64,000 bases of DNA, from the NCBI RefSeq assembly GCF_016806835.2, contig NZ_CP086111.1:4271471-4335470 (forward strand). Direction: 5' to 3'. The position numbers were made by a program, and so were the translations under genes. The notes below the pieces were generated by a model that was not told where the DNA came from, ran no database searches, and saw only the letters and a list, made by a program, of their open reading frames with translations. Below, one piece after another: positions 24,438-46,789 of the stretch; within the stretch, counting starts at the first letter, position 1; every line of letters starts with the position of its first letter. Source of the DNA: Skermanella rosea. GTDB taxonomy: Bacteria > Pseudomonadota > Alphaproteobacteria > Azospirillales > Azospirillaceae.

Positions 24438-24653
24438 AGCCGGCCCTCCACCAACGTTATTGCGCTATGGTCCAACATTCCGTCCGGCGAATCGTTACTC
24501 CGGCCCGCCTGGTCCGCCCTCTTGCGGCGGTATGAAAAACAATCCCTTTGGATAAGCGCTCGCCAAATGATCAAAAGCCGGGCTTCGGTGTTGTTTGCTT
24601 TGCTGCACCGCACCGGTTAGAAACGCCAAAAATCTTCATGTGAGGAAACCGCC

Positions 24654-26081
24654 ATGGTAGGCCTTTTCGGCATCATACTATCTCTTGTATTGCTTATGTA
24701 TCTGGCATACAGAGGCATCACGGTTCTCGTGCTTGCGCCTTTGCTTGCCGCCATGGCCGTTCTTTTCGCCGGCGATCTGCCGCTTCTGGCCACATATACG
24801 CAGGTCTTCATGACCGCGGCGGGCCGTTTCGTCACCACCTATTTCCCGCTGTTCCTGCTCGGCGCCCTGTTCGGCAAGCTGATGGACGACAGCGGGTCCG
24901 CCCGGACCATCGCGCACTGGATCGTCGAGAAACTGGGAGCCGAGCGCTCCATCCTGGCCGTGGTCCTGGCTTGCGGGATCCTGACCTATGGCGGCGTCTC
25001 GCTGTTCGTCGTCGCCTTCGCCGTCTATCCGATCGCCGTGGCCCTGTTCCGCGAGGCGCAGATCCCCAAGCGCCTGATCCCCGGTGCCATCGCGCTGGGT
25101 TCCTTCACCTTCACCATGACGGCGCTGCCCGGCACCCCGGCGATCCAAAACCTGATCCCGATGCCCTATTTCGGCACCGACGCCTTCGCCGCCCCCGGCC
25201 TCGGCCTGCTGGCCGCCGCGATCATGCTGGTCGGCGGCACCGCTTGGCTGACCTGGCGCCACCACCGCGCCCATGCCGCCGGCGAGGGGTACGGCACCCA
25301 TCCCGACGATCCCCGCCCGGAACCGCGCGCCCGCTCGGTCGGCGCCATGGCGCTCGACCGGGACGAGGTCGCGGCGCCCGGCATCCTGGTCGCCGTGCTG
25401 CCGATCGTGCTAGTCATCGCGCTGAACTATGCCTTCACGAACTTCCTGATCCCGACCTGGGAAACCGGCTACCTGGCCGAACCCAAGTACGGTTCGACCA
25501 CCGTCGCCAAGGTCCAGGGCACCTGGGCGATCATCATCGCCCTGATCGTCAGCAGCGTCGCCGTCGTCGCGCTCAACTGGCGCGTCCTGCGCGACCGGGT
25601 CGTCGCCTCGATCAACGAGGGCAGCCTGGGCTCCCTGCTGCCGATCTTCAACACGGCGTCGGAAGTGGGCTACGGCGCCGTCATCGCCTCCCTGGCCGCC
25701 TTCACCATCCTGCGCGACTTCGTGCTCAACCTGTCGCCCGACAACCCGCTGATCTCGCTGGCGGTCGCGGTCAACGTGCTGGCCGGCGTCACCGGATCGG
25801 CCTCGGGCGGCATGAGCATCGCGCTGGAGACGCTCGGCAGCACCTATGCCCAACTCGGACAGGCGGCGGGCATCAGCCCGGAACTGCTGCACCGTATCAC
25901 CGCCATATCGTCGGGCGGGTTCGACGCCCTGCCCCATAACGGCGCCGTCATCACGCTGCTGGCGATCTGCAAGCTGACCCATCGGCAGTCCTACGTGGAC
26001 ATCCTGATGGTCGCGGTCGCCATCCCGGTGACGTCGCTGATCATCATCATCGCCCTGGGCACGATGTTCGGTTCGTTCTGA
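24654..26081 (+). CDS. GntP family organic acid permease
   Basis: This 475-residue inner-membrane protein has about twelve hydrophobic segments and the GntP-family phrases LLGALFGKLMDDSGSA, ALPGTPAIQNLIP and SASGGMSIALETLG. GntP proteins import gluconate, hydroxybutyrate or related hydroxy acids with protons. TGAGGAAA precedes ATG 24654. The converging neighbour is a sigma-54 activator. The substrate cannot be fixed; a hydroxybutyrate-type acid would suit the storage-carbon genes elsewhere in the window. Confidence 0.85.
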   Translation: MVGLFGIILSLVLLMYLAYRGITVLVLAPLLAAMAVLFAGDLPLLATYTQVFMTAAGRFVTTYFPLFLLGALFGKLMDDSGSARTIAHWIVEKLGAERSILAVVLACGILTYGGVSLFVVAFAVYPIAVALFREAQIPKRLIPGAIALGSFTFTMTALPGTPAIQNLIPMPYFGTDAFAAPGLGLLAAAIMLVGGTAWLTWRHHRAHAAGEGYGTHPDDPRPEPRARSVGAMALDRDEVAAPGILVAVLPIVLVIALNYAFTNFLIPTWETGYLAEPKYGSTTVAKVQGTWAIIIALIVSSVAVVALNWRVLRDRVVASINEGSLGSLLPIFNTASEVGYGAVIASLAAFTILRDFVLNLSPDNPLISLAVAVNVLAGVTGSASGGMSIALETLGSTYAQLGQAAGISPELLHRITAISSGGFDALPHNGAVITLLAICKLTHRQSYVDILMVAVAIPVTSLIIIIALGTMFGSF

Positions 26082-42817: not shown

Positions 42818-43765
42818 TCAGTGGAGATGATCTTCCGGGAAGACGGCATCGAGCGACTCGGCCGTCAGGGAACGCCTCAGCACCTGATCAAGCTGATCGT
42901 GGGGTGTGCGCCGAAGACTGTTCTCCACCGCCGCCGGAATCGGCCCGAAACGGGTTTCGAGCGTCATGCGGATGCTTTCCAGCTTCCCCTCCGCTTTGCC
43001 GCCGACCCATCCCTCGGCGCGACCCTCGTCCAGCCATTGCTGCGCAGCGAGCGATACCATGTCCTGCTCCCGGTCCGGCCTGACCCTGCCGTTCACCGTC
43101 CGCATCATGTCGACGGAGATCCGCGGGTACATATCGAGCATATAATACAGCACTTTCTGTGCCAGGGGCGAGCCCTCGCGCAGGCCCGACAGCACCGCCT
43201 CCAGCAGCATTTCCGGATCGGGCTGGCGGTAGACGTATTTCAGCGGCAGCAGCGCCGCCCGGACCTCCGGGTCGGAGGAGAGCTGGTCGTCGGGAATGGG
43301 GACGATGTTGCAGACGACGTAGCGGAAGTCGCGCAGGCCCTCGTCGGCACCGATGGCGTCGATGACGGAGGTCGGCACCGTCCACGGTCCCCTCCCGTGA
43401 TAGAACACCAGAGGGACGATCGGCGGCAGCCGGCGCATCCGGGAAGCGTCGTCGCCGACGAAGCTCTCCCAGATGTCGACCAGATAGCCCAGCACCTGGA
43501 GCGGGGTCCGGGGATCGGGGTGGCTCTTGTGCTCCAGCAGCACGTAGATCAGCAGCGTGCCGCCGTCGCGCAGGCGGACCGAGAACAGGCGGTCGACCCA
43601 GCTGGGGGTCAGCGTCCAGTCGACGAAGCTCCCGTCCAGCGGCACCGGCGGCTCGTCGCCCAGGCGGGCGGCGATGTCGGCCGGCAGGTAGTCGCGGATC
43701 AGGATGCCGGCCCGGACCGGATCGTCCAGCAGGGCCCGGAACAGAAGGTCGTGCTGCTGGCCCAT
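42818..43765 (-). CDS. Rpn/Transposase_31 family nuclease
   Basis: This 315-residue protein belongs to the Rpn group of PD-(D/E)XK nucleases. It has HDLLFRALLDDP and IRDYLPADIAARL at the start, GSFVDWTLTPSWVDRLFSV, then the active-site block IYVLLEHKSHPD and PLVFYHGRGPW. Relatives promote recombination when overexpressed and are often abundant, mobile single genes, some with alternative internal starts. The chosen start, ATG 43765, begins the conserved motif. The gene is solitary. It converges with the MFS gene, with 6 bases between the stops. Confidence 0.85.
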   Translation of the reverse strand: MGQQHDLLFRALLDDPVRAGILIRDYLPADIAARLGDEPPVPLDGSFVDWTLTPSWVDRLFSVRLRDGGTLLIYVLLEHKSHPDPRTPLQVLGYLVDIWESFVGDDASRMRRLPPIVPLVFYHGRGPWTVPTSVIDAIGADEGLRDFRYVVCNIVPIPDDQLSSDPEVRAALLPLKYVYRQPDPEMLLEAVLSGLREGSPLAQKVLYYMLDMYPRISVDMMRTVNGRVRPDREQDMVSLAAQQWLDEGRAEGWVGGKAEGKLESIRMTLETRFGPIPAAVENSLRRTPHDQLDQVLRRSLTAESLDAVFPEDHLH

Positions 43766-43852
43766 CGGAAGGCGACCGTCCGCATGCGGTGGAATGACGG
43801 CGCCAATTGAGGGCGCCCGCATCCAACCGGCAATGCGGCATGTCGCCCTGCG

Positions 43853-44041
43853 TCAGGCGGCCTTGCGGACGCTGTCGTTGGCGGGCTGGCCGTTGAAGTT
43901 CGCGCTGCCGACACCCTTGACGCCGCCCTCGGCCAGTTCGTCGCGGGTCAGCTTGCGCGCGATCACGGCGGTCACGGCGAAATGGACGATGGCGATCAGG
44001 GCGAGCAGGGTCACGATGTTGGCGGTGGCTTCGGTGAGCAT
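43853..44041 (-). CDS. Small single-span membrane protein
   Basis: The 62-residue protein has one hydrophobic segment (NIVTLLALIAIVHFAVTAVIA), then a charged tail (RKLTRDELAEGG) ending NDSVRKAA. AGGAAC lies eight bases before ATG 44041. The frame is open to 44122, but that part is not protein-like. No family recognised; it may share a transcript with the Rpn gene 88 bases downstream. Confidence 0.6.
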   Translation of the reverse strand: MLTEATANIVTLLALIAIVHFAVTAVIARKLTRDELAEGGVKGVGSANFNGQPANDSVRKAA

Positions 44042-44348
44042 TGGATAGTTCCTGTCTTGGATGTCCGTTTGTGCGGTGCACCAAATATGGTCCCTGAACA
44101 CCCCGCATGTCAAATGCGGCATGCCGTATTTTGTATACCAGCACCGCGAGGCAGCCTTGCGTTTCGCGGATAGGTAAGGATAACCCGGCGCAAACTATCA
44201 TCTGAGCCTGATCGCGGATACCCGCTGAGCACCCTTCGCACCTTTCACGGGCTTCTTCTGTTACTCATTCGCCTCTTGAAACAATGTGACGCACCGCAGC
44301 ATAAGACAGCCATTTCCTTGCCCGGGGGTATCGATTGACATGGTTTCG
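44042..44348. other. Gene-free interval
   Basis: This 307-base stretch between the small membrane protein and the esterase gene has lower GC than its surroundings. It shows no open frame worth reporting, no strong hairpin and no clear promoter beyond AT-rich patches such as GCCGTATTTTGTATACC. Confidence 0.5.
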
Positions 44349-45347
44349 TTACCCGCTGGAAGAGTGCTGCCGGGTCCAGCGTCCGGGGCGCCGCTTCGAC
44401 AGGCCCCAGAACCACGCGATATGGTCCACGCAGGCTATGCCCATGTCGAAGACATAGGGGGCGGTCAGGACCGACCGCGCGCCGCTGCCGGCCCGCACCG
44501 GGGTGCCGTGCGCCATGCCCTTGACGACATATTCCTCGACGACCGCCTCGCCGGCCCGGTTCAGCCAGGCGCGCCGCATGTGCCCGTTGACCTTGTCCAC
44601 CGTGCCGGGGCCGCGGGGCAGCCGGTGGACGCCGACCCATTGCTTGACGATCTCCGCGCCATTGGCGGGATTGACGGTGCGGTCCGAGTCGCCATGCCAG
44701 ACCGAAACCCGCGGCCACCGGCCCCGGTGGGCCGAGGCGGCACGGACGAGCCCCGCCCAGACGATGGACGGCCTGGCCCGGCCATGGACCATGGCATTGA
44801 GCGCGTCCATCCTGCCATAGGCCGCCTTGTAAGGCATGCCGGCGATGACGGCCCCACCTGCGAAGACATCCGGATAGGTGGCGAGCAGAGTCGATGTCAT
44901 CGCGCCGCCGGCCGACAGGCCGGTCACATAGATGCGCCCGGGGTCGATCCGATGTTCGGCGACCATCCGGTCGACCATCTGGCGAATCGACAGGGGCTCG
45001 CCCTGGTCCCGCTCCATGTCGCCCGGCGAGAACCAACCGAAACACCGGTTGAAGTTGTTCGCCCGCTTCTGCTCCGGCAGAAGCAGCGCGAAGCCCAGGC
45101 GGGCGGCCAGTCTCGACCAGGCTATGCCGTGGTCGAGACTGGCCGCCGTCTGCCCGCAGCCATGCAGGGCCACCACCAGCGGAGCGTTCCTGGACAACCG
45201 CGGCGGCACGAACTTGTACATCCGGAGATTCCCGGGATTGGAGCCGAACTCCTCCACCTCCAAGATGTCGGGCCGCCATGACGGTGCGGCATCGACCGAA
45301 CGCGGATTGCGGAATGCCGTCGCAGCCCTGCCTGTCGCTCGGGCCAT
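44349..45347 (-). CDS. PHB depolymerase-type alpha/beta hydrolase
   Basis: The 332-residue hydrolase matches the extracellular poly(3-hydroxybutyrate) depolymerase/feruloyl esterase family. It has LVVALHGCGQTAASLD (oxyanion region), the nucleophile motif GLSAGGAMTS, an aspartate in WHGDSDRTVNPAN, and the catalytic histidine in KGMAHGTPV. The ATG at 45347 is preferred; the frame is open to 45464. A signal peptide is not obvious, so it may act in the cytoplasm on storage polymer or oligomers. The candidate MmgR-type RNA gene lies about 240 bases upstream, on the same strand. Confidence 0.82.
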   Translation of the reverse strand: MARATGRAATAFRNPRSVDAAPSWRPDILEVEEFGSNPGNLRMYKFVPPRLSRNAPLVVALHGCGQTAASLDHGIAWSRLAARLGFALLLPEQKRANNFNRCFGWFSPGDMERDQGEPLSIRQMVDRMVAEHRIDPGRIYVTGLSAGGAMTSTLLATYPDVFAGGAVIAGMPYKAAYGRMDALNAMVHGRARPSIVWAGLVRAASAHRGRWPRVSVWHGDSDRTVNPANGAEIVKQWVGVHRLPRGPGTVDKVNGHMRRAWLNRAGEAVVEEYVVKGMAHGTPVRAGSGARSVLTAPYVFDMGIACVDHIAWFWGLSKRRPGRWTRQHSSSG

Positions 45348-45585: not shown

Positions 45586-45672
45586 AAAAAAAAGGCCGCC
45601 CCGAAAGGCGGCCTGAGTCTAGGGAGGAAACGCCCAAAGAGGCGTATGCAGCATCACTGCTGCGATATCGAA
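45586..45672 (-). ncRNA. mmgR: Candidate MmgR/alpha-r8 family small RNA
   Basis: Read on the minus strand, a hairpin GCAGCA-GTGA-TGCTGC is followed by ACGCC-TCTTTG-GGCGT, then a single-stranded core TTTCCTCCCT (45621-45630). A terminator stem AGGCCGCC/GGCGGCCT with a six-base loop and eight T (45586-45593) ends it. The 10-base core and the terminator match my recollection of the alphaproteobacterial MmgR (alpha-r8) family, which limits polyhydroxybutyrate accumulation in Sinorhizobium. The core could pair with GGGAGG-type ribosome-binding sites. The 5' end is estimated. The neighbouring PHB-depolymerase-type gene fits the theme. Confidence 0.72.
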
Positions 45673-46096
45673 GTTATCCGAATCCGGATTTCGATCAATG
45701 GGAAAGGCAGGTCGTCAGATCTGCCCTTCGCCATTTGCATGGCCATGCGCCATTTCCCGGCCGCGCGGAAGACGCCCCGGCCAGCGCCCTCCCCCTTGTG
45801 GAAAACACGACCTCGGTGCGGGTCACCCCGAACCGCCCCTCCTTCGGGTCGCGCCCTCCCCCGCCCGGCATGCGCCGAACCATCGTCAGACCAGCGGTTC
45901 TCTGCCCGCCTATGCCGTTCGCACGATGAACGCCGGGCGGATACACCGGTCTATCCCTAAAATTCTATTAATTTCCCCTTTATATTGGGCATTTTTTAGA
46001 CCATTCTTAGTCTCAAGAAGATCACAACCCGAAAACGACTTACCAACCGGCCCCCTCGTCTAGCTGCGCAACAGCAATTCATAGGAACCCATAGTC
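45673..46096. other. Gene-free interval before the LuxR gene
   Basis: No convincing protein gene lies in these 424 bases; short open frames here have skewed Pro/Arg composition. The last 130 bases are AT-rich (CTAAAATTCTATTAATTTCC at 45958 onward) and probably hold the promoter of the LuxR gene. The region right of 45680 should hold the promoter of the small RNA on the minus strand. Confidence 0.45.
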
Positions 46097-46789
46097 ATGA
46101 ACGCCAACGGTCGCACGATCCTCGTTGAATCCAATCGTCTTTTTCGTGAAGGGCTGAAGCATCTGCTGGCGGGCACCCGCTTCGAAGTCGGTGCGGAGTT
46201 CAACACCATGGAGCAGGCGATCGCCCATGCCGGCGCCCGGGAAGGTTCGGGCCAGGACGCCGAGCCGGGCCTGGTGATCACCGGACAGGCCGTCAAGGCC
46301 GCCGCCGACCTGCAGCAGCTCCGGGATACCTATCCCGCGGCCCGGATCGTCGTGCTGGCCGACGACATGTCGGTGGACATGCTGCGCGAGGCGATGGGCG
46401 GCGGCGCCGACGGGTTCCTGATCAAGAACGTCTCGCCGGAGGCGCTGATCCAGTCGCTTCAGCTCATCATGCTGGGCGAGAAGGTGTTCCCGACCAATCT
46501 CGCGGCGATGCTGCTCGACATCAACGCGCCCTCGCCCCAGAACTCGATCCGCGGCCTGTCGCCCCGCGAGCAGGAGATCCTGCAGTCCCTGGTCACCGGG
46601 GCCAGCAACAAGATGATCGCGATCCGGCTCGGCATCACCGAGGCGACCGTCAAGGTCCACCTGAAGACGCTGCTGCGCAAGATCGACGTCAACAACCGCA
46701 CCCAGGCGGCGATCTGGGCCATGAACAACGGCTTCTCGGCGGAAGGCGCCGGCACGCCGACCCGCGGCCTCCAGGCGGTTTCCGCCTGA
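46097..46789 (+). CDS. LuxR/NarL-type regulator with degenerate receiver
   Basis: The 230-residue protein has a receiver-like domain (about 5-125) and a LuxR DNA-binding domain (about 150-215, LSPREQEILQSLVTGASNKMIAIRLGITEATVKVHL). The receiver lacks key residues. The N-terminal acidic pair is ESN, and the phospho-acceptor position near residue 63 is glycine (PGLVITGQA), while the conserved lysine in LIKNVSPEAL remains. It should therefore not be controlled by standard phosphorylation. The gene is monocistronic or leads into the small gene at 46855. Confidence 0.88.
   Translation: MNANGRTILVESNRLFREGLKHLLAGTRFEVGAEFNTMEQAIAHAGAREGSGQDAEPGLVITGQAVKAAADLQQLRDTYPAARIVVLADDMSVDMLREAMGGGADGFLIKNVSPEALIQSLQLIMLGEKVFPTNLAAMLLDINAPSPQNSIRGLSPREQEILQSLVTGASNKMIAIRLGITEATVKVHLKTLLRKIDVNNRTQAAIWAMNNGFSAEGAGTPTRGLQAVSA

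Follow-up and report, generated by a model that had tools for sequence, protein, structure and literature searches.

A predicted alpha-r8 small RNA of Skermanella rosea and the division of its sibling copies by promoter box

The minus strand of Skermanella rosea DNA at 45663-45586 of the window, the whole 64,000-nt stretch analysed here, holds a predicted 78-nt RNA gene with three stem-loops, a UUUCCUCCCU core and a terminator. Judged by its sequence and predicted fold, this RNA is a genuine new member of the known alpha-r8 family of small RNAs (sRNAs). We think it probable that it acts in trans as an alpha-r8 (MmgR/SisA) sRNA, one of about 14 siblings in the genome, which would mask the ribosome-binding sites of transporter mRNAs and would receive different inputs through their different promoters. 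On the sequence comparisons made here, the novelty lies in how large the Skermanella sibling set is and in its division by promoter box; among the papers listed in a literature search, none treats alpha-r8 in Skermanella by title or abstract, and an earlier mention is possible.

The original prediction had placed a candidate MmgR/alpha-r8 sRNA on this strand and had proposed a covariance-model search as its check. When this search was run, RF00519 matched at 45650-45579 (minus strand) with 59.8 bits against a gathering score of 41 (E 8.6e-10), which establishes the membership of the window RNA in alpha-r8; no second match at the gathering threshold was found within the 64-kb window. RF00519 is named suhB in Rfam, is described there as Makes More Granules Regulator and corresponds to mmgR, or alpha-r8. 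The family is defined by a single-stranded 10-nt core, UUUCCUCCCU, following a weak hairpin (PMC12559287). Further family criteria are a free small transcript of about 77 nt and association with Hfq. The features of the window copy are as follows.

45586-45663, minus strand: predicted alpha-r8 (MmgR/Sis-type) small RNA, 78 nt, from the RF00519 match and the fold
45648-45663, minus strand: 5' hairpin GCAGCA-GTGA-TGCTGC, 6 bp, from covariation
45630-45645, minus strand: second hairpin ACGCCT-CTTT-GGGCGT, 6 bp, adjoining the core, from the single-sequence fold
45621-45630, minus strand: anti-Shine-Dalgarno core (seed) TTTCCTCCCT, from the sequence and the RF00519 match
45586-45614, minus strand: intrinsic terminator, with its stem at 45614-45593 and then a T run to 45586
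45671-45698, minus strand: possible promoter, TTGATC (45698-45693), 16 nt, TAACTT (45676-45671), putative, by eye

The predicted fold contains three stems at -36.2 kcal/mol (z = -4.52), and none of 200 shuffles was equally stable. The 10-nt core follows a weak hairpin, and the fold pairs its first U, which closes the second hairpin. The terminator is of the Rho-independent kind, with a 9-pair stem, a 4-nt loop and eight T, the first of which lies within the stem; sites of this type as such occur there no less often than chance predicts (one found at the locus versus 0.7 expected). The core and the layout first described for this RNA, with its eight-T terminator, are borne out, except that its two hairpins are three in the fold. 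A promoter scan found none at the window copy, and the by-eye TTGATC/TAACTT candidate fell below the scan thresholds. Upstream of its putative -35 element, at about 45720-45700 (minus strand), lies an inverted repeat, GGCAG-N10-CTGCC; other alpha-r8 copies have different inverted repeats at the equivalent place, which look compensated by eye.

The 5' hairpin was examined in an alignment of 33 copies (32 distinct), in which 99% of its cells were paired. Double-sided changes affected three of its six pairs and amounted to 17 cells, compared with 4.4 in shuffled alignments, none of 500 reaching 17. Two of five measures did not rise above the shuffles, namely the number of pairs with double changes (62 of 500 shuffles) and further pair types (434 of 500). 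Six cells were G-U, as would be expected of a stem in RNA more than of a palindrome in DNA. The covarying hairpin suggests a transcription start at or before 45663, and the 5' end was placed from this hairpin and from a by-eye comparison with Ensifer mmgR; a start at about 45663 would give a 78-nt RNA consisting of the 5' hairpin, a weak second hairpin, the seed and the terminator. The seed TTTCCTCCCT was unchanged across the 33 rows, which had been selected by this core. The RNAalifold consensus of the 33 copies recovered the 5' hairpin and the terminator, but not hairpin 2; in it, the GGG of hairpin 2 is joined to the core's CCC, so that part of the seed would be hidden, and this result counts against an always-open seed. 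Unlike this consensus, the fold of the single sequence and the structure given in Rfam both have an open core, and we did not lean on the consensus because the MAFFT alignment was shifted in the hairpin 2 stem.

RF00519 gave 28 matches in the window's genome at E<=10, 14 at E<=0.001 and 9 over the gathering cut-off. Four other Skermanella genomes contained 10, 12, 13 and 13 matches at E<=0.001. Against the 10-14 copies of the five Skermanella genomes, 18 further members of the family carry 1-7 each (E<=1e-4), and the maximum in 191 other genomes sampled from the class, two of them of the same family, was five matches (E<=1e-4 with stricter filters). By its neighbouring genes, the window locus is common to all five Skermanella genomes, and the core and stems are present in each of the four counterparts (L039, L047, L065 and L071). 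Contig C1 carries nine other copies: for eight of them counterparts exist in three or four other Skermanella genomes, and for the ninth (L025) in two. Among the four copies on C2, C3, C4 and C6, L019 (C3) and L023 (C6) have a counterpart in G002 only, and the remaining two have none within the flanks fetched. The shared neighbouring genes lead us to infer that most of the expansion predates the divergence of these species.

The canonical alpha-r8 locus is reported to adjoin an N-formylglutamate amidohydrolase gene, with paralogues elsewhere (PMC12559287). None of the five PF05013 matches in the genome adjoins a copy, the nearest being about 7 kb away (C4); since paralogues are described as lying elsewhere, lacking this linkage does not exclude membership. 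Three copies that we assigned to class B (L022, L023 and L053) sit on smaller contigs. L023 adjoins a recombinase gene, a homologue of which adjoins L053, and L022 adjoins ORFs with sub-threshold transposase and relaxase matches. L055, about 3 kb from L053 on contig C2 of G002, has a terminator stem without the right arm. A third alpha-r8 type, with CGATTCCTCCCT at the core, carries no PhaR or CtrA box and adjoins a 3-methyladenine glycosylase gene; its loci were found across the family (L027, L044, L057, L070 and L081; L137, L140, L142, L151, L161 and L167).

The promoters were surveyed in 115 copies from 23 genomes, comprising the 14 copies here, 48 of other Skermanella (both at E<=0.001) and 53 of other family members (E<=1e-4). 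In each copy the scan covered a 77-nt stretch, -95 to -18 relative to the core, and 40,000 windows served as background. A PhaR/AniA-like core, YGCRNYGCR, was present upstream of 69 of the 115 copies (6 here, 28 in other Skermanella and 35 in other family members), compared with 4.4% of the background windows and 2.5% of the low-GC ones. A CtrA-like box, TTAACCAT or ATGGTTAA, was present upstream of 19 (4, 12 and 3, respectively), compared with 0.08% of the windows and 0.43% of the low-GC ones; TTAACCAT is described as the ungapped CtrA motif (PMC6180460). Both boxes together were found in none of the 115 copies, the chance of which would be 1.7e-9 if the copies were independent, which they are not; orthologues share their history, so the motif counts exceed the number of separate events behind them.

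The PhaR motif has precedents in related systems. The promoter of S. meliloti mmgR contains a PhaR (AniA) site that is listed as binding PhaR efficiently (PMC12542648), and the Bradyrhizobium PhaR consensus is given as TGCRNYGCASMA (PMC6201568). The window's genome encodes one phaR gene and contains 124 exact sites of this consensus versus 36 of the reversed pattern. At least four of the ten phasin matches carry an exact consensus site no more than about 250 bp ahead of the matched domain, which served as a check that the motif is real in this genome. When PhaR sites were scored with a position weight matrix (PWM), the 1% line was passed by 6 of 14, 16 of 48 and 32 of 53 copies; we preferred the pattern test as the cleaner one, since the PWM background contained true sites and another position was picked in some copies. 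An exact consensus at 24601-24612 (minus strand) precedes, by about 40 nt, the ATG start codon of an ORF at 24654-26078, which has a weak GntP-permease match (24.4 bits versus a cut-off of 22.5) and adjoins a sigma-54 activator gene; this region may be a hydroxybutyrate or sugar-acid uptake cluster.

The window copy itself carries neither the PhaR-like core nor a CtrA-like box upstream. Comparison with its syntenic counterparts revealed one further feature.

45658-45669, minus strand: degenerate PhaR-like box GATATCGCAGCA

The window sequence at the box position is CGATATCGCAGCA, identical in G001 and replaced by CGATGTCGCAGCA in G002. The syntenic counterpart of G004 (TTGCAGTGCAGCA) and that of G003 (CGCAGTGCAGCA) match the PhaR core, and a PhaR-like box is present at the syntenic loci L071 (G004) and L065. 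On the simplest reading, the left half-site would have been lost once, on the branch leading to the three close relatives. The window copy retains the right half-site, and the same bases, which in sister copies complete the PhaR-like operator, form the left arm of the 5' hairpin. With the left half-box lost and the hairpin kept, the window copy, which appears to descend from the PhaR-box type, probably answers another input.

Consistent with the earlier idea that the pyrimidine core can pair with purine-rich ribosome-binding sites, the core is an anti-Shine-Dalgarno sequence. Its exact complement, AGGGAGGAAA, occurs at 30 sites in the genome versus 5 for the reversed control. Half of the 30 sites fall inside alpha-r8 copies or weaker alpha-r8-like matches, and ten of the other 15 directly precede an ATG-started ORF of at least 118 aa. 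The remaining five (L195, L196, L206, L207 and L212) do not lie before an ATG at ribosome-binding-site distance; no CrfA-like sponge was identified among these five, and at L195 and L207 the complement lies ahead of a short candidate ORF, of 60 and 97 aa respectively. From a pool of 69 matches, we scanned 27 genes with AGGGAGGA before the ATG, namely the 10 with a perfect match and 17 others, from 30 loci, whose ORFs are 60 aa or longer. Eight of the 27 encode periplasmic solute-binding proteins (PF13458 and PF03480 three times each, PF09084 and PF13416 once each). In a small control of 24 other genes with strong Shine-Dalgarno sequences, drawn from 121 genes in 17 loci, no solute-binding family was seen among 25 of the 41 matched families (Fisher p 0.005, or 0.026 if one control case was missed). 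The candidate targets look rich in solute-binding proteins; as the seed is an anti-Shine-Dalgarno sequence, a complementary site by itself supports any single target weakly.

In Caulobacter, SisA has the same seed and is reported to repress TonB receptors and other transporters (PMC12559287). The window's genome encodes one hfq gene. Taking together the seed sites before ATG codons, the enrichment of solute-binding proteins, the SisA precedent and the single Hfq, repression of nutrient uptake by pairing at ribosome-binding sites is our best explanation, and masking of these sites is the likeliest mechanism. The U tail of the terminator would be bound by Hfq, and the UUUCCUCCCU seed would pair with Shine-Dalgarno sequences of the AGGGAGGA type and block translation, the main targets presumably being mRNAs for the solute-binding proteins of nutrient transporters. 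Many siblings would be controlled through a PhaR (PHB-sensing) operator and others through the CtrA-like box. Because the siblings have the same seed and different promoters, several signals would feed one output. More tentatively, and at less than even odds in our judgement, up to 14 same-seed copies could form a hub with PhaR, CtrA-like (cell-cycle/motility) and other inputs, in which the window copy would be a natural escape of a promoter from PhaR, perhaps now driven by the divergent LuxR-type regulator. In the PhaR class of such a hub, the operator and the first RNA hairpin share bases, so that the RNA structure would hold half of the operator in place.

The genes around the window copy are arranged as follows.

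44349-45347, minus strand: PHB-depolymerase-family esterase (NF050058 316.7 bits, cut-off 150; TIGR01840; PF10503)
46097-46789, plus strand: LuxR/NarL-type response regulator, divergent from the sRNA, from family match and synteny
43856-44041, minus strand: 62-aa ORF, its ATG preceded at 39 nt by a PhaR-like box, from sequence
44072-44080, no strand assigned: palindromic PhaR-like box TGCGGTGCA / TGCACCGCA, from sequence

The esterase confirms the PHB-depolymerase-type neighbour that had been read from the sequence; in NCBIfam, NF050058 denotes the extracellular type, not the intracellular granule depolymerase. The esterase and the LuxR/NarL-type gene each adjoin the alpha-r8 counterpart in all five Skermanella genomes. 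Homologues of the LuxR-type regulator (69-77% or about 48%) occur in the fetched flanks of other alpha-r8 copies (L055, L076, L078, L020, L160 and L181), also in another genus of the family; an old linkage is possible, as is a regulator of the sRNA. The 62-aa ORF has no Pfam match, and its counterparts in the four other Skermanella genomes have the PhaR-like box at -39 or -40. Homologues of this ORF lie just upstream of alpha-r8 copies in L058, L077 and L017; the box is present in the first two and was not seen in L017 (identity 33%). A PF04754 (Transposase_31, YhgA-like) gene occupies 42818-43822 (minus strand); it is also beside the locus in G001 and G002 and is absent from the fetched flanks of G003 and G004.

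With the esterase and the PhaR-boxed 62-aa ORF nearby, the neighbourhood has a PHB flavour. The window copy could accordingly be imagined as an MmgR dedicated to PHB, repressed by PhaR and limiting PHB through phasin and PHB genes including the adjacent esterase. S. meliloti MmgR, of the same family, is reported to limit PHB (PMC7143759, PMC8401924), sister copies have PhaR-like boxes and the box of the 62-aa ORF recurs in all five genomes. However, the PhaR/AniA operator that would mark a PHB-regulating MmgR is absent from the promoter of the window copy. Duplex energies also give little to this reading. Against a background of 103 genes (mean -13.9 kcal/mol, 5% point -19.6 kcal/mol), and with start codons chosen by a simple rule whose picks were implausible in some genes, phasin L189 pairs at -19.8 kcal/mol, at the 5% point, from its first-ranked (GTG) start, and phaR at -18.6 kcal/mol from a second-ranked start. 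Seven of the ten phasins were examined; the first-ranked starts of the remaining six give -11.5 to -16.3 kcal/mol, near background, and the esterase start pairs poorly, 87% of the background genes being at least as good. Direct PHB targeting was set aside on these energies, which for the phasin, phaR and neighbouring gene starts are mostly near background. A perfect ribosome-binding-site match precedes a 3HB-oligomer hydrolase gene in the window's genome; this candidate was rejected because GGGAGG is missing near the start in the four other Skermanella genomes, the site thus not being conserved. Given about 14 paralogues, the degenerate operator and the poor esterase pairing, PHB control by the window copy is possible, but unproven, and we regard a dedicated PHB role as unlikely.

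Less likely still, the window copy could belong to a dispersed repeat as a paralogue that is silent or in decay. The high copy number, the truncated terminator of L055 in G002, the recombinase gene beside L023 and the sub-threshold transposase and relaxase ORFs beside L022 would fit such a repeat, as would the empty promoter scan at the window copy. The locus is nevertheless syntenic in five of five genomes with core and stems intact in each counterpart, and the hairpin of the family shows compensated changes, which makes decay improbable. Least of all do we credit a leader or attenuator of the esterase mRNA in place of a free RNA: the two share a strand, stay together in five genomes and are separated by about 240 nt from the terminator to the assumed esterase start, but sister copies adjoin unrelated genes in varying orientations, the terminator and seed match a trans-acting family, the esterase was found at the four counterparts only among 101 loci of other genomes searched, and none of 30 scanned flanking ORFs at the other loci of the same genome matched PF10503.

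A trans-acting sibling sRNA that masks ribosome-binding sites, our preferred reading, can be set beside three known systems. The window RNA resembles S. meliloti MmgR in its UUUCCUCCCU core, terminator and hairpins; the Ensifer counterpart (L127) scores 61.3 bits with RF00519 and also has the 5' hairpin by eye. The PhaR/AniA-like operator is shared between S. meliloti mmgR and the promoters of the Skermanella sister copies. The position of the operator differs. In S. meliloti the PhaR site is upstream of the start, listed at 13 nt from it (PMC12542648), and in Ensifer L127 it lies by eye between -35 and -10, whereas in Skermanella the PhaR-like box abuts or overlaps the inferred start and contributes its right half to the RNA hairpin as one arm. 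The two also differ in number, S. meliloti mmgR being described as single-copy (PMC12559287) versus about 14 copies in the Skermanella genome. NtrC control has been reported for S. meliloti MmgR. The Sinorhizobium link from PhaR to alpha-r8 is predicted to extend across the host's own family, outside the rhizobia.

The closest likeness in organisation is to SisA-D of Caulobacter crescentus, several siblings with one seed and different promoters, in which the seed matches Shine-Dalgarno regions of transport genes. SisA-D comprise four copies versus about 14 in Skermanella, where, unlike in SisA-D, many promoters share recognisable PhaR-like or CtrA-like boxes. The Qrr sRNAs of Vibrio are likewise dispersed siblings with overlapping targets (PMC12559287); they are co-regulated and stand outside the alpha-r8 family, whereas the Skermanella siblings differ in their promoter boxes. 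Why bacteria keep many sibling sRNAs is raised as an open question in the Discussion of the SisA-D study (PMC12559287). A single locus that has the box in two genomes and a degenerate one in three makes sibling redundancy versus separate inputs directly testable. Among the genomes sampled, Skermanella is the extreme case of sibling sRNAs, in which the seed is kept and the promoters fall into recognisable operator classes.
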